Below are positions 41,418 to 56,300 of a stretch of DNA of 64,000 bases, one piece after another (the stretch's first letter is position 1; every line of letters begins with the position of its first letter). The notes under the pieces were generated by a model, which searched no databases, was not told where the DNA came from, and saw nothing but the letters and a program-made list of their open reading frames with translations. The stretch comes from an uncultured Gemmatimonadota bacterium (GTDB lineage: Bacteria > Gemmatimonadota > Gemmatimonadetes > Gemmatimonadales > Gemmatimonadaceae): the NCBI GenBank assembly GCA_902825965.1, contig CADEDA010000003.1:10632-74631 (forward strand), read 5' to 3'. The position numbers and the translations under genes were made by a program.

Positions 41418-42335
41418 GTGCTCGATCCCCGGGTCACCGAGCGCCGCAATCCGCGCAGCGCCGACATCGACCTCGCGTCGCCCCTCGCCATCGTCGACCT
41501 CATCAACGCCGAGGACCGGACGATCGCCGACGCCGTCGCAACGCAGCGCGAGGCGATCGCCCGGGCGATCGAACTGGCCGAGGCGGCGTTCCGCGGCGGT
41601 CGTCGGCTCTTCTACGTGGGGGCCGGCACGTCCGGTCGCCTTGGCGTCCTCGACGCGTCCGAGTGCCCGCCCACGTTCGGCAGCGACCCGTCGATGGTGC
41701 AGGGCATCATCGCCGGCGGGCCGGCCGCGCTGGTGCGCTCGCAGGAGGGCGCGGAGGACCGGCCCGAGGGTGCGGAAGCGGACCTCGCGGCCGTCGGGGT
41801 CGGGGCAGGGGACTTCGTGCTCGGCATCGCCGCCAGTGGGACGACACCGTACGTGTGGGCGGCGCTCGCCTACGCCAAGCGCATGGGGGCGACCACGGGC
41901 ATCCTCGCCTGTTCGCCTCCGCCGCCGGAACGGCTGGCGGGCGTGGATGTGGCCATCCTGCCGATCACCGGGCCCGAGGTCGTCACCGGCTCCACGCGAC
42001 TCAAGGCCGGCACGGCCACCAAGCTCGTGCTCAACTCCATCACCACCGGGGCGATGGTGCGTCTCGGCAAGACGTACGGCAATCTCATGGTGGACCTGCA
42101 GGCCACCAACGAGAAGCTGCGTGACCGCGCCGAGCGACTGGTCATGACCACCTGCGGCCTCGCACGTGACGGTGCGCGCAGCCTGCTCGCCGCCGCGCAG
42201 GGGCACGTGAAGGTCGCGATCACCATGCACAAGCTCGGGCTCGACCGCGACGCGGCGCTCGCCCGGCTCGCGCAGGCCGGCGGCGTGATCCGTCGCGTGG
42301 TCCCAGACGCACCGCCACCGGTGGAACCCGCGTGA
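41418..42335 (+). CDS. murQ: N-acetylmuramic acid 6-phosphate etherase
   Basis: This SIS-domain enzyme removes the lactyl ether from MurNAc-6-phosphate, giving GlcNAc-6-phosphate during peptidoglycan recycling. The signature VGAGTSGRLGVLDASECPPTFG (in two adjoining parts) and the later GTATKLVLNSITTGAMVRLGK stretch are diagnostic. The 305-residue length is typical. It starts at GTG 41418. The stop overlaps the anmK start (GTGA), and the GH3 gene follows, so all three genes form one recycling operon. Confidence 0.96.
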   Translation: MLDPRVTERRNPRSADIDLASPLAIVDLINAEDRTIADAVATQREAIARAIELAEAAFRGGRRLFYVGAGTSGRLGVLDASECPPTFGSDPSMVQGIIAGGPAALVRSQEGAEDRPEGAEADLAAVGVGAGDFVLGIAASGTTPYVWAALAYAKRMGATTGILACSPPPPERLAGVDVAILPITGPEVVTGSTRLKAGTATKLVLNSITTGAMVRLGKTYGNLMVDLQATNEKLRDRAERLVMTTCGLARDGARSLLAAAQGHVKVAITMHKLGLDRDAALARLAQAGGVIRRVVPDAPPPVEPA

Positions 42336-43459
42336 GTGTCCTCGTCGGGCTGATGTCCGGCACGTCGCTCGACGGCATCACGGCGGTCGTCGCGCGCTTC
42401 GCCGAGGACGATGGCGGCCGGGTGACCACCGAGCTGCTCGCCCACATCGACCGGCCGTACGACGCGCGCACGCGCGCGCGCCTCGCCGCCGCCCTGCAGG
42501 GTGCGACACCGAGCGAGTACACCGCGTTGGACTTCGCCCTCGGCGGGTGGCTCGCGGATGCCGCCGTCGCCGTGCTCGCCGAGGCGGGCATCGCACGCAG
42601 CGACGTCGCCGCCATCGCCTCGCACGGACACACGGTGTGGCATGAGCCGCCACTCGGCACCTGGCAGTTCGGCCAACCTGCGGTCATCGCCGAGCGCTGT
42701 GGCATCCCGGTGATCGCGGACTTCCGCGTGCGCGATGTCGCGGCCGGCGGCCAGGGTGCGCCACTCGTCCCGATCGCCGACGCGCAGCTCTTCGCCGATG
42801 ACCGCCAGTGGCGCATCCTGCAGAACCTGGGCGGCATCGGCAACCTCACGGTGGTCCCCCCGCGCGGCGAGCTCGCGGCGGTCCGCGCGTTCGACACCGG
42901 CCCCGGTGTGTGCATCGTGGACGGCGTGACGCGACTGCTGCGCAGCGACCTCCCGTACGACGTGGACGGCGCACTGGCGCGCACCGGCACGGCGATCGAG
43001 TCGGTGATCGAGGACCTGCTCGCGGACCCCTGGTACGCGGTGGAGCCGCCCAAGAGCACCGGGCGCGAGCGCTACACGGCGTCGTTCATCGCCGATTTCG
43101 TGGTGCGGTGCCGCGCCGCCCGCGCGGGCTGCCGCGACGGCGACATCGTCGCCACCGCCTGCTGGCTCACCGCCCGCAGCATCGCGCTCGCGGTCGAGCG
43201 GTTCGTGCCGCAGCCCGTGGAGGACGTGCTGCTCTCGGGCGGTGGTGCGCGGCATCCCGTCCTGCGCGAGGCGATCGCGATGGCGCTCGCACCGCGGCAC
43301 GTACGGCTGTTCGAGCGCGTGTTCTTCGACGGCGACGCCAAGGAGGCCGTGGCCTTCGCCTACCTCGGCTGGCTGCACCTCCAGCGCCGCCCCGGCAACC
43401 TGCCGACGGCCACCGGGGCGCGCGGTCCACGCATCCTCGGCGCGTACCACCCCGCCTGA
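42332..43459 (+). CDS. anmK: Anhydro-N-acetylmuramic acid kinase
   Basis: This enzyme opens and phosphorylates 1,6-anhydro-MurNAc to MurNAc-6-phosphate, the substrate of MurQ. The N-terminal GLMSGTSLDGI is the family and ATP-phosphate motif. IASHGHTVWHEP, GGQGAPLVPIADAQLF, NLGGIGNLTV and FDTGPGVCIVDG follow in the expected order, and DVLLSGGGARHPVL is the C-terminal motif. The 375 residues match. It overlaps murQ by four bases and the GH3 gene by one. Confidence 0.96.
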   Translation: MSVLVGLMSGTSLDGITAVVARFAEDDGGRVTTELLAHIDRPYDARTRARLAAALQGATPSEYTALDFALGGWLADAAVAVLAEAGIARSDVAAIASHGHTVWHEPPLGTWQFGQPAVIAERCGIPVIADFRVRDVAAGGQGAPLVPIADAQLFADDRQWRILQNLGGIGNLTVVPPRGELAAVRAFDTGPGVCIVDGVTRLLRSDLPYDVDGALARTGTAIESVIEDLLADPWYAVEPPKSTGRERYTASFIADFVVRCRAARAGCRDGDIVATACWLTARSIALAVERFVPQPVEDVLLSGGGARHPVLREAIAMALAPRHVRLFERVFFDGDAKEAVAFAYLGWLHLQRRPGNLPTATGARGPRILGAYHPA

Positions 43460-44904
43460 TGCATCCACTCGCCGCGCACCTCGTCCCGCAACTGCGCTGG
43501 GACCCGGGGCACGGGTACGCGTACCTCGACGATCTCATCGACGAAGCCCTCGAGGTGGGCGTAGGCGGGTTCCATCTCCCGAACGGGCCGTCGGAGCACG
43601 TGCGGGCGCTCACGCAGGAGCTGCATCGGCGGAGTCGGCACCCGCTGCTCATCGCCACCGACGCCGAGGCGGGGGTGCCGTTCGACGGTGGCACGGCACT
43701 GCCACCGCTGCTCGCGTTGGGCGCGCTCCGCGACGCCGACGCGGTGCGCCGTGCCGCGCGCATCACCGCGCGCGAACTGCGGCAGCACGGCGTGAACTGG
43801 GCGTTGGCGCCGGTGGCCGACCTGGAGCGCGCGCCGCTCAATCCCGTACTCGGTGCGCGCAGCTTCGGCAGCGACGCGCAGAAGGTGGCGGAGTGGGTGG
43901 TCGAGTGGATCGACGCCTGTCAGGCCGAGGGGGTGCTCTCCTGTGCGAAGCATTTCCCGGGTCTCGGTCGGGCCTCGGTGGACCCCAGCTTGGCGGCCGG
44001 CAGCGTCGACGCGGTGGCCACGACGCTGTGGAGTGACGATCTCATCCCCTTCCGCGGAGCCGTCGACACCGGGGTCGCCAGCGTAATGCTCTCGAGCGTC
44101 GCGTACCCGGGCCTGGACCGCAGCGGCATCGCGGCGCCGCGCTCGCGACCCATCGTCACCGAGTTGCTGCGTGGGGAACTGCACTTCGAGGGACTCATCG
44201 TGAGCGACGTGCTCGCCGCGCCGGGCCTCCGCCAGCAGGAGGAGGAGTCCATCGCCGCGATCCAGGTGCTGGCCGCGGGCACCGACCTGCTGCTCGCGCC
44301 CTCGGACCTGCACGGCGTGCTGGAGACGATCGAACGTGCCCTCGAAGGCGGGCTCCTGTCGCCCGATGCACTCGAGGGCAGCCGCAACCGCCGCGAGTTC
44401 TGGGCGGACTGGGCGCTGCCGGCGGTGCTGCGCGAACCGACCCTTGACGACGTACTCTGGGCGCGGCAGGTGGCGGACACCCTCGTGCATCCGGTCCGGG
44501 GCAGCATCCCGAACGTCGGGCCGGTGGTGGACGTCATACAGGTGGACGACGACGCGCGTCCGGGATGGCCGGTGCCCGGGCGTGGCCGCTTCGTGGAGAC
44601 GCTGCGTGCCGTGGGACTCGAGGCCCGCAGCGTCGATCGCCCCACCGCGGAGGGCCAGGGGGCCGTGGTGCTGGCGCTCTTCGGCGGGCCCACGGAGGGT
44701 AAGGGCCGGGCCGGCTACTCGGCGGAGACCAAGCGTCGCGTGGCCCAGGCACTGGCCGAGGCACGGCAGGCGCAGCGGACGATGCTGGTGATGGTGTTCG
44801 GCCCGCCGCGGCTGGTCGGCGAGGTCCCCGAAGCGCAGCACGTGCTCTGCTGCTGGTCCGCCTCACGCGGGATGCAGGAAGCCGGGGCCCGACGCCTGCT
44901 GTAG
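43459..44904 (+). CDS. Glycoside hydrolase family 3 protein, NagZ-like but atypical
   Basis: From the operon, the expected role is removing GlcNAc from GlcNAc-anhydroMurNAc. The N-terminal 300 residues form the GH3 barrel: IATDAEAG, the KHFPG motif at 164-168, and a nucleophile Asp250 in LIVSDVLAAPG. However, the NagZ loop that should read D-S-H after KHFPGHG is D-P-S here (residues 175-177), so the usual acid/base His is missing. At 481 residues it is longer than simple NagZ (about 340), with an extra C-terminal alpha/beta region similar to the second domain of long GH3 enzymes. Confidence 0.82.
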   Translation: MHPLAAHLVPQLRWDPGHGYAYLDDLIDEALEVGVGGFHLPNGPSEHVRALTQELHRRSRHPLLIATDAEAGVPFDGGTALPPLLALGALRDADAVRRAARITARELRQHGVNWALAPVADLERAPLNPVLGARSFGSDAQKVAEWVVEWIDACQAEGVLSCAKHFPGLGRASVDPSLAAGSVDAVATTLWSDDLIPFRGAVDTGVASVMLSSVAYPGLDRSGIAAPRSRPIVTELLRGELHFEGLIVSDVLAAPGLRQQEEESIAAIQVLAAGTDLLLAPSDLHGVLETIERALEGGLLSPDALEGSRNRREFWADWALPAVLREPTLDDVLWARQVADTLVHPVRGSIPNVGPVVDVIQVDDDARPGWPVPGRGRFVETLRAVGLEARSVDRPTAEGQGAVVLALFGGPTEGKGRAGYSAETKRRVAQALAEARQAQRTMLVMVFGPPRLVGEVPEAQHVLCCWSASRGMQEAGARRLL

Positions 44905-45006: not shown

Positions 45007-47058
45007 ATGGCATTCCAGGCGTCTCACTCTCAGCTGATGTCCACCGAATTCACCGCCCTCCTCCAGAACGCCCTGCACCCGGCCTACACGCTCGAGCGTG
45101 AGCTGACCGGGGGCGGCATGTCGCGCGTGTTCGTCGCGACCGATGTGGCGTTGGGGCGCAAGGTGGTCGTGAAGGTGCTGCCGCCGGAGCTCGCCGCCGG
45201 GGTGAACCACGAGCGGTTCCGCCGCGAGATCCAGGTGGCGGCGCAGCTGCAGCATCCGCACGTGGTGCCGTTGCTCTCGGCCGGCGAGCGCGACGCGCTC
45301 ATCTGGTACACGATGCCCTACATCAACGGGCACTCGCTGCGGGAGGCGATCGCGAAGGGTGAGCGCTTCAGCGTGAAGGACGTCGTGCGCATCCTGCGTG
45401 ACGTCGCCGAGGCGCTGGACTACGCACACGGGCTCGGCGTGATCCATCGCGACATCAAGCCGGGCAACGTGCTGCTGATGGGGTCCCACGCACTCGTCAC
45501 CGACTTCGGCGTGGCCAAGGCCATCTCGGCCGCCATGCCCAGCTCGGGCTTCACCAGCGCGGGCATGGCGATCGGCACGCCGGCCTACATGGCGCCCGAA
45601 CAGATCGCGGCGGACCCGGCGGCGGACCACCGGATGGACCTCTACGCGCTGGGCCTGCTCGGCTACGAGATGCTCACCGGGCGCGTGCCGTTCAAGGAGG
45701 ACTCGCCGCAGAAGACCATGGCGGCGCAGCTCACGCGGGACCCGGAGCCCATCGAGACCTCGCGGACCGACGTGCCCGTGGCGCTCACCGCACTCATCCG
45801 GAGCCTGCTCGCCAAGATCCCTGACGACCGCCCGCAACTCGCGGCCAACGTCGTCACGGCGCTCGACGACATCGCACTCAGTTCGGGGCAGACGCTCGCA
45901 GCGGTGCGCCCGGTGAGCAAGCCGTCGCGGCTGCGGGTGGCCGGGCTCTTCGCATCGGCGGCGGCCGTGGTCGCCGTGGCTTGGGCCATTGGCGAGCGGC
46001 AGGGCGCCGAAGCCGGCACCAACTTCGTCCGCGATTCGCTCGCGGCCGCCGAGACGGCGCAGGTGGTGCCGCAGGCCTCGGCGTTGCTCACGCGCGAGGA
46101 TTCCATGGCCATCGCCAAGGCCGTCGCCGAACGCATGGCGGAGCGCGCTACCGCGCAGCGCGCCACGGCGCCCGCGCGTGGCGGCGCGACCGGCAGTCCG
46201 GGCGGCGCCAGCCCGGGCAGCCCGGGCAGCGCGGCCGCCAGCGGTGGCGGCGTGGCCGCGACGCCGGCGGTGAACGCGACGCCACTCACCCCGGAGGTCG
46301 CACGGGTCGCGGCGATCGCGGATTCGGCGCGGCTGGTGGCGATGGCGGACTCCATTCGCGCGCAGATCCAGCGCGCCGTGCTCGACTCGCTGGTGCGGCT
46401 CAGCTCGCGCGCCGGGCCCAATGCCGTGCGGCTCGGTGCGACCACGCGTGAACTGGCGATGGCCACCGAGGCCGCCGCGACAGCCGCGGAACCGTCGGGT
46501 GCCGCGCGTACGCTCGTGCGCAGCGGCCCGCGGCGCGTCGTCGTCGCGACACCGCGTCCGAGCCGCGACCGCCCGGACCTCGACGAGATGGGGCGCCTGC
46601 TCGCGGACTCGCTGCGGGCCGGACTCGACGCCCATCCGCGTTTCATCGCCGTGCCCGCCGACTCCGTGGCGGCGGCACTCCGCGAGTCGCGGACCGTGAA
46701 CGCCGTGCAGGAGCGGCTCAACGCCGACCTCATCGTATCGATCTCGCTGCGTCCCGTACGCGACAGCGTCGAGCGCATCATCTCGGTGCGGGACCTGGCC
46801 GCGAAGGGACCGAACACGCGCGTGGTGGTCTCCAATGCCTACGCCAAGTCGCCGGGCTCAGGCGTGGCCGAGATCGTGCCGCAGGTGATCCGGCAGTTCG
46901 CGGACATCGAGCGCACGAGCATGTTCTTCGACGAGCGCAGCCGGTTCCGGGGGACGCCGCCGCCCGCTGCGCCGGGTGAGAAGCGGGCGCCGCCACCGGG
47001 CGCTCCGCAGGTGCCGCCCGCCGGCGGCCAGACGGGCATCCCGCCCGAGTCGCGCTAG
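45007..47058 (+). CDS. Transmembrane Ser/Thr kinase with TolB-like extracytoplasmic domain
   Basis: A 683-residue receptor-like kinase. Residues 30-290 are the kinase (GGGMSRVFVA glycine loop, Lys56 in VVVKVL, HRDIKPGN, DFG at 166-168, GTPAYMAPEQ). A single membrane helix spans about 311-328. The outer part has an Ala/Gly/Ser-rich stretch, then a domain near residues 500-620 (LLADSLRAGLDAHPRFIAV, RLNADLIVSISL) resembling the TolB/FlgO N-terminal-like domain attached to many kinases and cyclases. The tail is Pro-rich. A second ATG at 45037 is a possible start. Its stop interlocks with that of the convergent protease gene. Confidence 0.9.
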   Translation: MAFQASHSQLMSTEFTALLQNALHPAYTLERELTGGGMSRVFVATDVALGRKVVVKVLPPELAAGVNHERFRREIQVAAQLQHPHVVPLLSAGERDALIWYTMPYINGHSLREAIAKGERFSVKDVVRILRDVAEALDYAHGLGVIHRDIKPGNVLLMGSHALVTDFGVAKAISAAMPSSGFTSAGMAIGTPAYMAPEQIAADPAADHRMDLYALGLLGYEMLTGRVPFKEDSPQKTMAAQLTRDPEPIETSRTDVPVALTALIRSLLAKIPDDRPQLAANVVTALDDIALSSGQTLAAVRPVSKPSRLRVAGLFASAAAVVAVAWAIGERQGAEAGTNFVRDSLAAAETAQVVPQASALLTREDSMAIAKAVAERMAERATAQRATAPARGGATGSPGGASPGSPGSAAASGGGVAATPAVNATPLTPEVARVAAIADSARLVAMADSIRAQIQRAVLDSLVRLSSRAGPNAVRLGATTRELAMATEAAATAAEPSGAARTLVRSGPRRVVVATPRPSRDRPDLDEMGRLLADSLRAGLDAHPRFIAVPADSVAAALRESRTVNAVQERLNADLIVSISLRPVRDSVERIISVRDLAAKGPNTRVVVSNAYAKSPGSGVAEIVPQVIRQFADIERTSMFFDERSRFRGTPPPAAPGEKRAPPPGAPQVPPAGGQTGIPPESR

Positions 47059-48746
47059 CGGATGACGCCGGCGGCGTCCTTGGGGAGTTGGGACGCCAGC
47101 CGCGCGGACGGCACCGTGTAGATGATGCGGCCGCCGCTCTCGCGTGCCGCCCCGTAGAGCACGCCGACGACCAGCCCGCGATTGTCGAACACCGGCGAGC
47201 CGCTCGATCCCTGCGCCGCGAACGTGTCGAGCTGCAGGTTGTCGTCGAGCACCTTGCTCACCGTGCCCATGAACAGCGACGCGACGGGCCGGAGGTTGTC
47301 GATGTCGCCGTCGTTGCCGGCGGTGCCGGTGCCGAGCGGGTAGCCGAGCAGCGCGACCGGGTCACCCACCTTCGCCGCCGTCTCGCGTGCGATGCCGGCC
47401 ACCACCGGGTAGTTGCCGGGGTTGGAGAGCCGGATGAGTGCGAGCTCGTCGTTCTCGCTCACATACTCGATCGACGCTTCCTTCCATCCGCGGGTCTCGT
47501 TGAACGTCACGCCGATGCGGTCAGCGCGTGCGCCGTCCCGGTCCTGCACCACGTGCTTGTTGGTGACGATGAGGCCGCCGGGCAGGATGTTGAAGCCCGT
47601 GCCGCTCGACGGCTTGCCGTTGATGCTCACCGCGATGAACACGATCGCGCCCTTGTTGGCCGCGGAGATCGCACTGAAGTCGAGCTTGGAGAGTCCTTCC
47701 GCGCGGGTCTGCGTTGCGCGGATCTCGGCCGACAGCGCGCTCACGTCGCCGCCGGAGGCCTGTTGCGCCCGCAGGGCCTTGTTGAGCCGCTGGATGTCGG
47801 CCTGCGCGGCCTTGAGCTGCGCGTCGGCGACCCCCGACTGCGCGAGCCGTTCGCCGAAGGCGCGCACGATCGAGTCGTTGGTGGCCAGCAGCTGCTCCAC
47901 GCGCGCCTCGGCCGACTTCGCGGCCTGCAGGGCGAACCACGCGGCGCCCGCACCGATCGCGATCACGCCGACCGCCATGGCCGCGACCATCATGCGCAGC
48001 TTGCTCGTCTTGGCTTTCACGGCCTCGGCGACGCGCACCTCGGTGGGCTTGCGGGCGCGCGTCGGCGCGCCGGCCTGCGTGGCGGAGCCGGCCGCACGGG
48101 GTGCGGGCGCCGAGGCGGGTTCCTTGATCGCGCCCGAGGGCACGGACACCGGCGGCGGCACCCTGGGCGGTACCTGAGGCGGTGTCGTGGCGCGCGGCGG
48201 CGGGGCCGCTGCCGCTGCGGGCGGTGGTGGCGGTGGCGGCGCCGCGGCGCGCACGTCCGCGGCGTTGATCGCGCCGGGGCGCAGGGTCTCCAGCGGTGGC
48301 GGCGACGCCGGCGCCGCGCCGGTCGGCGTGTTCGGCATCCAGGGCGCGCCCGGATTGCCCGGCGAGTACGGCGACCCCGTGGACATCGTGCTCGGCCGCC
48401 GCTCCTCCGGGGCCGGCGGGGCAGCGCCCACCGGCAGGTCCGTGAGGTGGAAGATCGCCTGCGGGCCGTCCGCACCGAACGAGAGGATGTCGCCTTGGCG
48501 CAGTTCGCGCTCGCCGACGAGCAGGTCGCCGTTCACGAACGTGCCGTTGGTGCTCCCGATGTCGCGCAGCACGTAGCGACCGTCGAGGATGCGCAGCTCG
48601 GCGTGCCGCGAGGAGACGTCGAGGTCCTTCGCGGCGTCGAAGCGCAGGTCGTTCATCGGGTGGCGCCCGATGGTGATGATCGACTTCTCGAACCGCTCAC
48701 GCGCGCCGGCGCGCGCGCCGCGGGTGATGCGGAACTCGATCGCCAT
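47055..48746 (-). CDS. FHA domain - membrane helix - trypsin-like serine protease
   Basis: A 563-residue fusion. Residues 1-100 are an FHA domain that binds phosphothreonine (TIGRHPMNDLRF, SSRHAEL, DIGSTNGTFVNG). A Pro/Ala linker (about 105-230) leads to a basic stretch, a membrane helix (252-272), a coiled coil (275-350) and a trypsin-fold protease. The catalytic triad reads His398 in TNKHVV, Asp433 in ENDELAL and Ser515 in GSSGSP. The predicted topology puts FHA inside and the protease outside, so kinase signalling could control it. It overlaps the PP2C gene by one base. Confidence 0.9.
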   Translation of the reverse strand: MAIEFRITRGARAGARERFEKSIITIGRHPMNDLRFDAAKDLDVSSRHAELRILDGRYVLRDIGSTNGTFVNGDLLVGERELRQGDILSFGADGPQAIFHLTDLPVGAAPPAPEERRPSTMSTGSPYSPGNPGAPWMPNTPTGAAPASPPPLETLRPGAINAADVRAAAPPPPPPPAAAAAPPPRATTPPQVPPRVPPPVSVPSGAIKEPASAPAPRAAGSATQAGAPTRARKPTEVRVAEAVKAKTSKLRMMVAAMAVGVIAIGAGAAWFALQAAKSAEARVEQLLATNDSIVRAFGERLAQSGVADAQLKAAQADIQRLNKALRAQQASGGDVSALSAEIRATQTRAEGLSKLDFSAISAANKGAIVFIAVSINGKPSSGTGFNILPGGLIVTNKHVVQDRDGARADRIGVTFNETRGWKEASIEYVSENDELALIRLSNPGNYPVVAGIARETAAKVGDPVALLGYPLGTGTAGNDGDIDNLRPVASLFMGTVSKVLDDNLQLDTFAAQGSSGSPVFDNRGLVVGVLYGAARESGGRIIYTVPSARLASQLPKDAAGVIR

Positions 48747-50137: not shown

Positions 50138-50153
50138 CGTGATGCAGGTCACT
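50138..50153 (-). promoter_or_regulatory. CRP/FNR-like palindrome upstream of the PP2C gene
   Basis: CGTGA-N6-TCACT (core GTGA..TCAC) resembles the CRP-family site TGTGA-N6-TCACA. Its centre is about 60 bases upstream of the start predicted from the TATAAA element, the classic class I activator position. It overlaps the last codon of the kinase gene upstream. Confidence 0.4.
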
Positions 50154-51954
50154 AGCAGCCGCTGGCCCGATTGAAGTTCTGACCCCGACCCCGCTTCTTC
50201 GAGTCGCTGCTTCGGTTGATCACCTGCTTCGCCGCCTCGCAGGTCCGTTCCGCATCGCTGTCGGCGACGGCGTACGCGAGCATCCGGATGTACCAGCCGT
50301 TCGCGAGGTCCTGGCCGGTGAGCCGGTCGAACACCGCATCCAGCTCACCGAGCACGCGTCGTGCCGTCGCTTCGTCGAGGTCGGTGCGATCCACCGCACT
50401 CTCCCAGGTCGCGAGCGACTGGGTGTACGACACGGGGGCTTCCCCCGCCGGCGCAGTCTTCGTCTGCGTCGGAGGCGTCGTCCCACTCCCCGGACGATTT
50501 GTGCCCGCCGGAGGATTCACCGGCGCGGGCACCTTCGTCCCCGGGTTCGGCGCCGGGTTGGCTCCGGGGTTGGTTGTGTTGTTCGCAGCCGGGTTCTCCG
50601 CCGTCCCGACGGTGCGCGCCGCGCTGTCCGCCCCACCCGTGCCGTTGACCGGCGTGCTGTCGGCCTGGGTGGCCGGCGCCGTGATGCCCGCCGGCGTCCC
50701 GGTCGGCGCCTCGGCGCCCGACTTGTTCCCCTTCGTCGAGATCCAGACCGCGACCAGCGACGCGAAGATCGCGACCGCGGGCCCGCCGACCTTCGCCGCC
50801 ATCGGGAGACCTTTGCGCTCCGCGGCGGCCGCTGCCGTCGGCTGCGCCTGGGTCGGCGCGGCGGCCGGACGACGCGCTGGCTTGGTCGCCGCCGCATCGA
50901 TCGCCACCGTCGCGTGCCCGCTCGGCCGCGTGACCTTGGTGCGCGGGACCTCCTGCGCTCCCAGCACCTGCGTGCCGGCTTCCGCCGCGACCGTCGAGGG
51001 CATGTTCGCGATCGCGGCGGCGAACTCGCGTCCGAACTGCGCGGCGCTGGTGTAGCGCTCGTTCGCGTCGCGCGAGAGCGCCTTGTCGAGCGTCGCCTGC
51101 AGCGCGGCCGGCCAGGCCACCTCCGGACGGACCTCGGCCAGGTACCGCGGCCGGTCCGTGAGTCGCATGATCATCGACTCCTGCACCGTCTCGGCCGGGA
51201 ACGGCAGCTTGCCCGTGAGGCAGTTGAATGCCACCAGCGCGAGCGAATAGGTGTCGCTGCGGCCATCGAGCTTGTCACCCGCGAGCTGCTCGGGGCTCAT
51301 GTACTCCGGGGTCCCCACCACCAAGCCGGTCTTGGTGACCTTCTGCGCGTCGCTCGAGCTCGCCTTCGCGATGCCGAAGTCCACCACCTTCACCAAGTCG
51401 CCACCGTCGCGGGTCTTGGCGATCATGATGTTGTCCGGCTTCAGGTCGCGGTGCACGATGCCTGCATCGTGCGCGACCTGCAGTGCATCCGCCGTCTGGT
51501 GGATGATGCTCGCCGCCCGCGCCGGCTGCAGCGCGCCGCCCTTCTCGATGAGCGACGTCAGCGCCTGCCCCTCGATGAACTCCATGGCGAGGTAGATCAG
51601 CCCGTCGGGCGTCTCGCCGAAATCGTAGATGCCGCAGATGTTCGGGTGCGAGAGCCGCGACGCGTTGCTCGCCTCGCGGTTGAACCGCGCGATGGCGTCC
51701 GGGTCCGTGTTCATCCCCGGGTTCATCACCTTCAGGGCGCTCTTGCGCCCCATCTTCACATGCTCGGCCAGGTACACCGTGCCCATGCCGCCTTCGCCGA
51801 GCTTCTTCAGGATGTGGTACCGCTCGGCGACCACCGAGCCCAGCAGGTCCGCCTGGGCGTTCGCCGAGCGCAGCGCCGTGCCATCGCGCGGGCAGAAACG
51901 CTCGGAGAGCGGATACTCGGTGCCGCAGGTCGGGCAGATCTTCTGGTCGCTCAC
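50152..51954 (-). CDS. Transmembrane Ser/Thr kinase with N-terminal zinc ribbon
   Basis: A 600-residue kinase. A zinc ribbon opens it (CPTCGTEYPLSERFCPRDG, ligands Cys7, Cys10, Cys21 and probably Asp24). The kinase domain (about 45-310) has GEGGMGTVYLA, the Lys in SALKVM, HRDLKPDN, DFG and GTPEYMSPEQ. A linker leads to a membrane helix near 395-412 (VGGPAVAIFASLVAVWIS). The outer part has a Pro/Asn/Thr-rich segment, then a small helical domain (ATWESAVDRTDLDEATARRV) ending in Cys. The start overlaps the upstream FHA gene (ATGA). It is the second kinase of this signalling cluster. Confidence 0.93.
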   Translation of the reverse strand: MSDQKICPTCGTEYPLSERFCPRDGTALRSANAQADLLGSVVAERYHILKKLGEGGMGTVYLAEHVKMGRKSALKVMNPGMNTDPDAIARFNREASNASRLSHPNICGIYDFGETPDGLIYLAMEFIEGQALTSLIEKGGALQPARAASIIHQTADALQVAHDAGIVHRDLKPDNIMIAKTRDGGDLVKVVDFGIAKASSSDAQKVTKTGLVVGTPEYMSPEQLAGDKLDGRSDTYSLALVAFNCLTGKLPFPAETVQESMIMRLTDRPRYLAEVRPEVAWPAALQATLDKALSRDANERYTSAAQFGREFAAAIANMPSTVAAEAGTQVLGAQEVPRTKVTRPSGHATVAIDAAATKPARRPAAAPTQAQPTAAAAAERKGLPMAAKVGGPAVAIFASLVAVWISTKGNKSGAEAPTGTPAGITAPATQADSTPVNGTGGADSAARTVGTAENPAANNTTNPGANPAPNPGTKVPAPVNPPAGTNRPGSGTTPPTQTKTAPAGEAPVSYTQSLATWESAVDRTDLDEATARRVLGELDAVFDRLTGQDLANGWYIRMLAYAVADSDAERTCEAAKQVINRSSDSKKRGRGQNFNRASGC

Positions 51955-53210
51955 ACACTCTCCACACGCAGGGTCTGGTCACCGATCAGGATGCGCTGGC
52001 CCGGCCGCACCTGCTTCTCCCCCCGTACAGCAATTGCGATGCCGTTGCGGCTCTCGAGGTCGATCACGATGAACTCGAGGTCCTCGCTGCGGATCTCCGC
52101 GTGGCGGCCGCTCATCGTCTTGTCGTAGGGGAAGATCCAGTCCCCCTCGCTGCGGCCGATCACCACGTTGCGCGACGGCGAGAGGTGGCAGTTATCCCGG
52201 GCACTCCCGTCGGCGCGCAGCTGTTGCATCACGGCGATATCGGCGCTCGGCGTCGCCGAGCCCAGGCGCCGCGTGGCATCGGCTTCCGGCGGGTGCGGAC
52301 CGGGGTAGCCCAGTCGGCGGAAGCGCAGCAGTTGCGACCCCACGAGCACCGTGTCGCCGTCCTGCAGCTTGTACGGCGCGTCGGTGAAGAGCCAGGTGCC
52401 GTTGCGCGAGCCGAGGTCGCGCACGAAGAGCTGCCCGTCGCGCAGCGAGAGCTGGGCGTGCACGGGGCTCATGAAGGTGTCGTCCGGGAACCGCAGTTCA
52501 CCCTCGGCGCGCCCCAAGGTGGACTCGGGGCCCGGCAGGGTCTCCACGCGCTTCACGGCTCCGGTGGCGTCGAGCACGGCGAGCTTGGGCCCCACGCCGG
52601 AGGCCGAGGCGGAGAAGACGGCCGTCCCCACGGCGGGGGTGGGCGGCGCGGCCGTCATCGCCACGCGTGTGCCGCAGCGCGCACAGAACACGTCGACCTC
52701 GGGCACCACCGGCGTGCCGCAGCCGCCGCAGACGGCGCGTGACACGGAGGCCGACGGCGGCGCCTTCGCAATGCGTCCGCCGCACTTGGGGCAGAACGGC
52801 AGCGACGGGTCCACGGCGGTGCCGCAGTACGGGCAGGGCGCCTTGCCCGGCGGCACCGAACTCAGGTCCCGCACCGGCCGTGCGGCGGCCCCGGCGGGCG
52901 GCACCGGGGGGAATCCGGGCGAGGGACGGACCCCAGCCGGCGCCACCGGCGCGGCTGCACCCGGGGGCACGGATGGCGCGGACGACGCGCTCGACGAACC
53001 CGGGGTCACCGGCTTCACCGTCAACGGGTTCGAGACCCGTGTGGGCGGAACCCCGAATCGCTTCGCGGGGTCTGGATGCTGCACCCCGCCCATCGTCTCC
53101 CCCAACGCCGCACTCACCGCACCGCTCTTCGCGATCGGTTTGCCGCAATCGATGCAGAACTTCGAGGTGGGGTCGTTCTCACGACCACAGACGGCGCAGC
53201 GGAGCGTCAC
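51951..53210 (-). CDS. Triple zinc-ribbon, double FHA-domain protein
   Basis: A 419-residue soluble adaptor. Three zinc ribbons occur: CAVCGRENDPTSKFCIDCG at the start, CPYCGTAVDPSLPFCPKCGG in the middle, and CGGCGTP with VFCARCGTR. They are joined by a Pro/Ala linker. Two FHA domains follow: the first has LGRAEGELRF, SPVHAQL and DLGSRNGTWLF; the second has IGRSEGDWIF, SGRHAEI and DLESRNGIAI. Two phosphothreonine readers in one chain suggest scaffolding of phosphorylated partners, probably the adjacent kinase. The GTG at 53210 fits VTLRCAVCGRE; longer frames upstream look noncoding. Confidence 0.9.
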   Translation of the reverse strand: MTLRCAVCGRENDPTSKFCIDCGKPIAKSGAVSAALGETMGGVQHPDPAKRFGVPPTRVSNPLTVKPVTPGSSSASSAPSVPPGAAAPVAPAGVRPSPGFPPVPPAGAAARPVRDLSSVPPGKAPCPYCGTAVDPSLPFCPKCGGRIAKAPPSASVSRAVCGGCGTPVVPEVDVFCARCGTRVAMTAAPPTPAVGTAVFSASASGVGPKLAVLDATGAVKRVETLPGPESTLGRAEGELRFPDDTFMSPVHAQLSLRDGQLFVRDLGSRNGTWLFTDAPYKLQDGDTVLVGSQLLRFRRLGYPGPHPPEADATRRLGSATPSADIAVMQQLRADGSARDNCHLSPSRNVVIGRSEGDWIFPYDKTMSGRHAEIRSEDLEFIVIDLESRNGIAIAVRGEKQVRPGQRILIGDQTLRVESV

Positions 53211-53242
53211 GGGGCCCGAAGATGAAAGGGGAGAATGCCGCG

Positions 53243-53248
53243 AATATA
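53243..53248 (-). promoter_or_regulatory. -10 element of the FHA/kinase unit
   Basis: TATATT on the minus strand, 32 bases before the GTG at 53210. It is divergent from the promoter of the peptidase-barrel gene, about 65 bases away. Confidence 0.5.
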
Positions 53249-53312
53249 GAGCGGCGACGACTGCGGCGGGAGAAGGCAACGGCTGCCGGATGCGGCGGCG
53301 TTCGCGACGCGA

Positions 53313-53318
53313 TAGACT
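53313..53318 (+). promoter_or_regulatory. Candidate -10 element of the peptidase-barrel gene
   Basis: TAGACT ends seven bases before an in-frame GTG (53326) and ten before the ATG (53329), again predicting an almost leaderless transcript. Confidence 0.42.
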
Positions 53319-53328
53319 TGCGCGCGTG

Positions 53329-56300
53329 ATGCGGATTCCGCGTGTGCGACCCGGACTGCTGGCCCTCGTGTTGCTGCTCCTCGCCCGGCCCCTGTCGGGG
53401 CAGGTGCGGCCCGACCTCGCGTGGCAGACGTTCGAGACGGACCACTTCCGCATCCACTTCACGGCCGAGACCGAGACGCTGGCGCGCCGCACGGTGGTGC
53501 TCGCCGAGCGTGCGTATGCGGAGCTGAGCACACGGCTCACACCGCCCCGCGGCACCATCGACCTGGTGCTCGCCGACAATGTGGATTTCGCCAACGGCTA
53601 CGCGACGCCGTACCCGACCAACCGCATCGTCCTCTATGCGCGGCCGCCGATCGCGGAGTCGGCGCTGCGCAACCATGCCGACTGGACCCGCATGGTCCTC
53701 ACGCACGAACTCGCACACATCTTCCACCTGGACCGCGCGCGCGGGGTGTGGGGCGGGCTGCAGAAGGTGTTCGGTCGCGCGGCGCCGCTGTTCCCGAACC
53801 TCTACGCCCCGGCCTGGGTCACCGAGGGGCTCGCGGTCAACCTCGAGACCGAACTCGCGGGTGGCGGGCGCCTCGCCGGCACGGAGTTCCCGGCGCTGGC
53901 CCGCGCGGCTGCTGCCGACGATGCGTTGCCCGCGCTCGACGCGCTCTCACTCGGCACGCTGCACTATCCGTTGGGGAACGCTGCGTACGCCTACGGCGCG
54001 TACGCCATGGCGCGCGGGGATGGCTCCCGGCTCAAGGACTTCGTCGAGGCCCAGAGCGCGCAGTTGATCCCCTTCCGTCTCGATGCGACCGCGCGGCGCG
54101 GCTTCGGTCTCACGTTCAGCGAGTACTGGACCCGCTGGCGCGATTCGGTGCGCGTCGCCGTGAGCATGGCTGCGAACTCGGCGGCGAACGCGGGGGCGAA
54201 CGCGGCCGCCGCGCCCATCAGCCTCACCGCACATGGGCTCACCGCGCGGTACCCGCGCTACGCCGCCGACGGATCCATCCTCTACGTCGCCGACGACGGT
54301 GCGCAGACCGTCGGCGTGTATCGCCTCACGCGCAACGGCCCCACCGTCCATCGCGCGCGCGTGGCACGTCGGCAGTCCATCGACGCGGTGGTCCCGACGC
54401 CGGACGGCAGCCTGGTGCTCGCGGAACTCGACTACGTGGATCCGTACAGCATCCGGTCCGCTCTGCTGCTCGAGCGCGGGACGCCGTTCGGTCGCCGCCG
54501 GCGCGCGATCGCGCCCGCCGAGCGGCTCTCGCACCCTGACCTGCACGCGGCGTCAGGGCGCCTCGTCGCGGTGCGCACCGACGCCGGCAGCACCGAGCTC
54601 GTGACGCTGGCCCGTGCGACGGCCGACAGCGACGCCAACGGCGACGCCAACGGCGACGCCGACACCTGGGAGCCGCCGCGCCGGCTCGCCGAGGGCTCCC
54701 TCGACCGCACCTGGGCCGATCCGCGGTTCTCCCGCGCCGGCGACCGGGTGGCGGCGGTGGAGTGGCGCCGCGGTGGGCGCATGAGCGTGGTCGTGCTCGA
54801 CCTCGCCGGCCGGGAGCAGGGTCGATTCGCTCCGCTGGCGACTGGCCGCGGGCGCATGACCATCCTCTCCTCACCGGCGTGGGTGCCCGGCGACTCGGCG
54901 ATCGTCTTCGTGAGCGACCACGAGGGGCGTCCGATGCTGTACCTCGGCGACATCTCCAGCGGACGGATCGCACGCGTGTGGACGACCGCCACGGCCCTCG
55001 CGACGCCCGATGTGTCCGCCGATGGACGCGAACTCGTCGCGGTCGAGTTGCTCGCCGATGGCTATCACGTCGCCGTGCAGGCGATGCCCACCACGCTGGA
55101 CCTGCGCGCGGCGCCCAGCGACAGCGCCGCTGCCGCGGCGATGACCATCGCGCCCGCCGCGGCCGACCTGCGCATCCGCGAGCGCGCCTATTCTCCCTGG
55201 TCGCAGCTCGCGCCGAGTTGGTTCCTGCCCGTGTTGCGGCAGACGGGACGTGGCCTGACGGAGTTCGGGGCGCTGCTCGGCAGCAGTGACATCGTGGGCC
55301 AGCATCGCTGGTCACTCGAGGCCGCCGGCAGTGGCCGCCCGGGCGACGACCGCAACGGGTTCGAGGTCAACGCGTTCGGCACGTACACCTGGTCCGGGCT
55401 CGGCAATCCGGTGCTGCAGCTCACCGTGCAGAACGAGTGGCAGCACGGCGCCGTGTTCAACCAGACCACCGGGGCACGCGTGGCGACGTTGGCGCAGCGG
55501 GCCAGCAGCGCTGGCGTGCAGGCGGTCCTTTCGCGGCCGCGCGTGCGGCTGAGCACCTGGACCGCGCTCGGTGCCGAGTACGAGCGCACCGACTATCGCA
55601 CCTACCCGGGAGTCGCGCTCAGGGGACTCACCAATCCCGCGTTCTCGATGAAGATCCACACGGGCGCCGTGACGGCCTCGGCCGGTTTCTCCACCCTGCA
55701 GCGGCCCACACGCGCCTTCAGCGCCGAGGACGGCGTGAGTGCCGTGCTGACGTTCCGTCAGCGCTTCGGCAGCGGCGTGCAGTTCGAGGACATCAACGAG
55801 GTCATCGCCACGGCGACGGCCGCCAAGTCGATGCCGTGGGGCGGGCACGCGCGACACGTGCTCGCGCTGCGTGCGGCCGCGGCGACGGCGGGGCACGCCA
55901 CGACCACGGCGCTGAGTGCCGGCGGCGTGAACGGCGGGGCCCTGCAGCTGCTGCCCGGCGTGGTGATCGGTGGCGGCTCACGCACGTTCGGCGTGCGCGG
56001 GTTCGACGGCTCGACGCAACTCGGCGTGCGTGCCGCCGCGGCGAGTGCGGAGTACCGGGCTCCCCTCGCGCTGGTCGATCGCGGCTACCGGTTCCTGCCG
56101 CTCTTCCTGCAGCGCGCTTCGCTCGTGGCGTTCGCGGATGCCGGGGCGGCGTGGTGCACGCGCAGTGTCGCCGACTCGTTCATCTGCCCGCCCACGCTGC
56201 CCGCGCAGAACTGGCTGGGCTCCGCCGGCGGCGAGCTCACGCTGGATGGGTCACTCTCGTACGACCAGATCTACCGATTCCGGTTCGGCGTCGCGCAGGT

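Follow-up and report, generated by a model that had tools for sequence, protein, structure and literature searches.

An FHA domain, a predicted membrane helix and an HtrA-fold protease in one chain: a candidate inside-out switch in a kinase/phosphatase gene cluster of Gemmatimonadota

The gene, its product and its neighbours

A stretch of 64,000 nucleotides from an uncultured Gemmatimonadota bacterium (the window; all coordinates are positions within it) carries on its minus strand a gene whose product joins an FHA domain to a protease in a single chain, and it is with this FHA-protease, 563 amino acids long and the source of the residue numbers used throughout, and with the genes next to it (Table 1), that the present account is concerned. 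On the opposite, plus, strand an open reading frame (ORF) of 579 amino acids is also open across the same stretch, so ORF length proves nothing and the claim that the gene is coding rests on homology. A Pfam scan of the minus-strand protein finds FHA (PF00498) at residues 24–91 with 65.4 bits (6.6e-18) and Trypsin_2 at residues 382–529 with 73.1 bits (5.3e-20), the only families in it being FHA, Yop-YscD_cpl, Trypsin_2 and Trypsin. Twelve named relatives, all from Gemmatimonadota or from unplaced bacterial metagenome-assembled genomes, each align to it end to end, and identity among relatives falls to about 40% across the length. The ORF that a preliminary description, made from the sequence alone, had placed at 47055–48746 was borne out, on the minus strand and at exactly those positions, by the Pfam FHA and Trypsin_2 matches and by the relatives, and the order it gave, FHA, Pro-rich linker, one membrane helix and then protease, by the Pfam scan, hydropathy and a structural model.

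At the sensitivity used, the host genome has no second gene of the whole type, its four other matches each being confined to one region, FHA or protease. In one other genome the match to the protease gene (L028, G081:C16) carries a single in-frame TAG near its end and the ORF stops slightly early.

Table 1. Features of the FHA-protease gene and its cluster, by position in the window
Feature	Position	Strand	Basis or remark
FHA–membrane helix–HtrA-fold protease gene	47055..48746	minus	ORF, Pfam, relatives; 563 amino acids
FHA domain, residues 24–91	48474..48677	minus	Pfam PF00498; pocket alignment
Pro/Ala-rich linker, about residues 105–233	48048..48434	minus	mostly low model confidence
Predicted membrane helix, about residues 252–271	47934..47993	minus	hydropathy
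Helical stalk, about residues 272–354	47685..47933	minus	model; coiled coil weakly supported
HtrA/Deg-fold protease domain, residues 353–563	47058..47690	minus	Trypsin_2; model mean pLDDT 93.0
Catalytic His398	47553..47555	minus	family alignment
Glu434 codon (GAG), catalytic Asp position; Asp433 codon precedes	47445..47447	minus	HtrA1 alignments, family alignment
Catalytic Ser515 within GSSGSP	47202..47204	minus	family alignment
PP2C-type Ser/Thr phosphatase, C-terminal membrane helix	48746..50050	minus	stop overlaps protease start by one base (TGATG)
Ser/Thr kinase STPK1, hydrophobic stretch 389–407	50152..51954	minus	HRDLKPDN and DFG present
Zinc-ribbon protein, two FHA stretches	51951..53594	minus	overlaps STPK1 by 4 bases
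Second membrane Ser/Thr kinase STPK2, convergent	45007..47058	plus	3′ end overlaps protease gene by 4 bases

The protease gene is the last of a run of four found across Gemmatimonadota, preceded by those for an FHA/zinc-ribbon protein, a membrane Ser/Thr kinase and a membrane-tailed PP2C. In all 12 named relatives PP2C is directly upstream of the protease gene, and the kinase and the FHA/zinc-ribbon gene are there in each of the eight whose DNA reaches that far, while the convergent STPK2 is present in five of the 12. A further 20 genome regions, picked for having the protease, all have PP2C and the kinase, and the FHA/zinc-ribbon gene was detected in 18 of them. The start codon of that last gene in the window is uncertain, its TTG ORF start overlapping a divergent neighbour.

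Genes resembling murQ, anmK and nagZ, and named for that resemblance to peptidoglycan recycling genes, lie at 41418–44904 on the plus strand, converging on the cluster, and their synteny holds in most relatives. A role in peptidoglycan or the cell wall was considered on account of these neighbours and rejected as a reading of general synteny, since GGT-like, WD-labelled and gCA-like genes further out are also syntenic in most of the 20 regions, and since loci that lack kinase and protease have the same neighbours around PP2C.

From the FHA pocket to the catalytic triad

Across the family alignment, which has 41 members of the FHA-protease, the pocket residues R28, S45, H48 and N67, together with G68 and T69, are invariant. 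The FHA part thus appears from the alignment to keep an intact phosphothreonine pocket, binding itself being predicted. The window protein has a single hydrophobic stretch, its best 19-residue segment starting at 253 with a Kyte–Doolittle (KD) mean of 2.04, and every one of the 41 has between FHA and protease a 19-mer with KD of at least 1.75 (mean 2.32), a second stretch occurring in one member. Lys and Arg are more numerous before the helix than after it in 30 members, equal in seven and fewer in four. Because of the one predicted helix, the excess of Lys and Arg on the FHA side, the intact pocket and the adjoining membrane kinase and phosphatase, the FHA domain is predicted to be inside, and the protease outside, the inner membrane. 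The cytoplasmic FHA and envelope protease of the preliminary description are supported to that extent, though the catalytic acid it named is one residue off, as set out below. That FHA and protease should share one side of the membrane, or that the hydrophobic stretch should not be a membrane helix, gains something from the hydropathy, which is moderate for the window protein and drops to 1.75 at the low end of the family; with such a stretch in all 41 members, and a second in one only, we give it very little credence.

Is the segment between the two domains suited to carrying a signal? In a full-length model built on a 13-row alignment, which is poor overall (mean predicted local distance difference test, pLDDT, 63.6) and has a confident FHA domain, helices run over 235–304, 308–331 and 336–354 with low to moderate confidence. 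The preliminary description had a coiled coil here. The segment is indeed helical in the model, but in a heptad test of residues 274–354 the window protein does no better than shuffles (p 0.31) and p falls below 0.05 in just 10 of the 41 members, so that a helical stalk is what the model suggests and its being a coiled coil is weakly supported.

This bears on an explanation in which phosphorylation would set place and not activity: the FHA domain would bring a membrane protease that is always active to where the kinase and its phosphorylated partners are, for instance sites of division or envelope growth. The linker from FHA to helix, which varies greatly in length among relatives and is modelled with low confidence, suits a tether better than it does rigid transfer, and the weak coiled-coil signal favours the same explanation. 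However, conservation is good in the juxtamembrane segment (T235 in 34 of 41 members, R238 in 34, T247 in 35), which would be needless for a mere tether, and targeting alone, while it deserves to be kept in mind, is on balance rather unlikely. Conserved linker threonines occur also in STPK1 (T339 in 28 and T328 in 24 of 31 rows, two of which, L007 and L014, are probably the other kinase) and in PP2C (T300 in 31 of 33). As their surroundings drift while the threonines stay, they are candidate phosphosites. A common phosphorylation motif is not claimed, the letters that flank the conserved threonines differing among kinase, phosphatase and protease.

The protease domain, residues 353–563, was modelled by itself on 41 rows with a mean pLDDT of 93.0. 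In a structure search, with rows within 1 Z counted as tied, DegP, DegQ and HtrA1 are tied at Z 25–26 (DegP 25.9, HtrA1 25.2), and there is a profile match to HTRA1 at 2.4e-24; as modelled, the domain has an HtrA/Deg-type trypsin fold. The Pfam scan finds no PDZ domain, as had been stated of this protein, and the chain ends 34 residues past the Trypsin_2 match.

The triad had been given as His398, Asp433 and Ser515. His398 and Ser515 stand, being invariant in the 41 members. The acid does not: residue 434 is on the catalytic Asp column both in an alignment with HtrA1 chain 7w24 and in a family-profile alignment with HTRA1 chain 3nwu, and position 434 has D in 29 members and E in 12, the window protein included, and nothing else, whereas position 433 has D in 22 members and A in 11, the remaining eight showing V, T, R, S or E. 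Because of these alignments, and of a column 434 restricted to D and E next to a variable column 433, the triad of the window protein is, by alignment, His398-Glu434-Ser515. Of the 12 E434 members, 11 have D at position 433, and a helping role for Asp433 is conceivable. On a protease tree built minus columns 433 and 434 the E434 members group together, with two changes, one of them forced by starred branches.

Can Glu stand in for Asp in an HtrA-fold serine protease? The Glu-triad clade is a natural test of this; a literature search gave nothing of use on Glu in triads of the trypsin type. Were the window-clade protease weak or dead owing to its Glu acid, the domain would act as a binding domain, for which might be cited both the spread of E434 (12 of 41, with the changes just given) and the presence in the family of one clear pseudo-protease, that of genome G041 described below. 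But none of the 12 E434 members has lost His398 or Ser515, the Ser loop still reads GSSGSP, and chymotrypsin-fold 3C-type cysteine proteases with Glu as their acid are active, and a dead or weak protease in this clade seems quite improbable.

Co-retention and a proposed switch

Of 101 genomes from the phylum, 58 have a PP2C that reaches 1e-45, and the locus around it was inspected in every one of them. Kinase and protease are both present in 27. They are both absent in 26, and with G083, which lacks the kinase and whose protease side is near the end of the stretch, in 27; there the protease was counted absent because nagZ follows PP2C within about 300 bases. Three more have the protease with the kinase side off the contig, and one, G041, has a protease without the kinase. 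As PP2C sits between the kinase and protease genes, a single deletion cannot remove both and yet spare it.

The exceptional protein (L101, G041:C24), whose gene adjoins PP2C, carries A398, G434 and L515 in place of the triad and has kept the R, S, H and N of its FHA pocket; a search of the G041 genome at 1e-75 gave no STPK1 match. In G037, its genus mate, the kinase is present and the triad intact. Judged by its residues the G041 protein is a natural pseudo-protease, and its dead triad and the co-retention of kinase and protease point the same way, toward control from inside to outside.

The opposite direction also merits attention. The protease might be a sensor that, on envelope damage, cuts itself, the periplasmic tail of STPK1 or another partner, with FHA reporting to the kinase/phosphatase module, and in support STPK1 and PP2C themselves carry membrane stretches, while DegS offers a precedent, an HtrA protease that is anchored in the membrane and senses stress in the envelope. 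Yet neither the Pfam scan nor the model shows the periplasmic part to contain a sensor domain, PDZ or otherwise, and conservation of the FHA pocket even where the protease is dead, in G041, suggests that FHA has a binding role of its own; such outside-in signalling is distinctly unlikely.

At four loci where kinase and protease are missing (L089, L092, L099 and L100) the ORF after PP2C resembles, by eye, a multi-span membrane transporter.

Two further architectures occur in the phylum. Versions with two FHA stretches (L075, L076, L077 and L078) have Pfam FHA and Trypsin_2 in all four; kinase genes adjoin in L076 and L078 only, and a hydrophobic stretch over 1.75 is present in all but L075. Versions with a long insert in the protease (L067, L068 and L069), a type that at 1e-30 is in three of the 101 genomes, have FHA and Trypsin_2, adjoining kinases and PP2C, and a hydrophobic stretch over 1.75 in all three. 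Taking both together, kinase genes are next door in five of seven regions. In a plasmid collection, matches in 19 records cover 27–40% of the query and none covers over 80%.

Domain order, FHA pocket, HtrA fold, gene module and co-retention come from sequence and models; topology, phosphorylation, binding partners, activation across the membrane and substrate are what we infer in fitting a mechanism to them. STPK1 would phosphorylate threonines within the module, for which the linker threonines of kinase, phosphatase and protease are candidates, and the FHA domain would bind phosphothreonine. Acting through the one membrane helix and the stalk behind it, this binding may cluster or reorient the protein, or place it, whereupon the PDZ-less periplasmic protease domain would cut its substrate, and PP2C would reset the switch. 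That a membrane-anchored HtrA-like protease has its activity or assembly set from the cytoplasm by threonine phosphorylation is a reading to which we give a probability of about 0.5. A bolder version is offered tentatively, at somewhat worse than even odds: that Gemmatimonadota have a one-chain phosphothreonine-gated envelope protease, with kinase, phosphatase and FHA-membrane-protease forming a dedicated inside-out switch in at least three architectures (one FHA and a stalk; two FHA; one FHA and a long protease insert), with a His-Glu-Ser triad in the window clade, and that loss of the kinase is accompanied by loss of the protease gene or, as in G041, of its triad.

Several considerations weigh against control from the cytoplasm. 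The events are few: on a MurQ plus AnmK tree of 47 rows, from which 11 of the 58 genomes, including G041 and G083, were left out, the best tree has five label changes, two of them forced by starred branches, and the sign test gives p 0.5, being unable to reach significance. In eight regions with STPK1-like kinases (37–60% identical), seven in genomes without the protease and one in G024, where the module is also present, the partner genes adjoin in none, though in G092 and G049 the kinases are at the contig end and partners are possibly off the contig. Because kinases of the same family (about 40–60% identity) stand without partners in protease-less genomes, the STPK1 kinase family is, on this comparison, not reserved for the protease. 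For the topology the evidence is hydropathy and charge, and four of the 41 members carry fewer Lys and Arg on the FHA side; the weak heptad signal does not establish a rigid coiled coil able to carry a signal; and Glu434 could lower activity.

Relation to known systems

Within the bacterial cell, FHA proteins are known to read Ser/Thr phosphorylation. If such a reader is indeed joined through the membrane to a protease, cytoplasmic phosphorylation would have a direct route to proteolysis outside, and the conserved neighbours and domain order suggest that the cell may switch the cutting of envelope proteins from within.

The fold is common to HtrA/Deg proteins (DegP, DegQ, DegS and HtrA1, Z 23–26), from which the window protein differs in having no PDZ domain, Glu for Asp in its clade and an N-terminal FHA domain. 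Yop-YscD_cpl in the Pfam scan (38.9 against a cut-off of 33.2) brings to mind the YscD/PrgH-type ring proteins of type III secretion, which have an FHA-like cytoplasmic domain, one membrane helix and a periplasmic part. Here, by contrast, the C-terminal part is a protease, and the window neighbours scanned are kinases, PP2C and FHA proteins, with no secretion parts.

A single chain in which FHA precedes a trypsin-family domain was printed in 2008 for NP_811686.1 of Bacteroides thetaiotaomicron, with the order FHA-FHA-trypsin (PMC2605481). That protein has two FHA domains, and the accessible part of the source mentions no membrane helix, kinase/phosphatase cluster or tested function for it (PMC2605481). 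The two-FHA versions L075–L078 share its order, and in three of them a membrane stretch exceeds the cut-off. MarP (Rv3671c) of M. tuberculosis is, in the portion of its account available, a membrane-anchored periplasmic chymotrypsin-like protease with four putative membrane helices (PMC6628586). The likeness to MarP structure 3k6y is close in fold (Z 23.5, root mean square deviation 2.6 over 181 residues, 28% identity), but the window protein has an FHA domain, which MarP lacks, and one hydrophobic stretch versus four N-terminal membrane helices, and scores 43.7 bits against the cut-off of 250 of the MarP-family model, NCBIfam NF033740.

With LapD/LapG, going by the part of the source at hand, a cytoplasmic signal passed through the membrane controls periplasmic proteolysis (PMC3032553). 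That system uses a receptor of cyclic di-GMP (c-di-GMP), LapD, and a separate protease, LapG, whereas here a single chain holds both reader and protease, and phosphothreonine would serve as the signal; a GGDEF/EAL-type c-di-GMP receptor is absent from the Pfam families of the FHA-protease. The FHA-protease belongs to neither LapD/LapG nor MarP, and lacks the PDZ domain that marks a standard HtrA. Literature in which most subscription papers were outside coverage gave no account of a protein of this FHA-membrane-protease type encoded beside a kinase and a phosphatase, and the only FHA-trypsin fusion encountered in print is that of PMC2605481. Apparently new are the layout across the membrane, the conservation of the kinase/phosphatase module, the co-retention and the clade with Glu in its triad. 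The module is small, at four genes, conserved and open to experiment and, if the proposal is true, it would be the Ser/Thr-phosphorylation counterpart of the c-di-GMP-run LapD/LapG.

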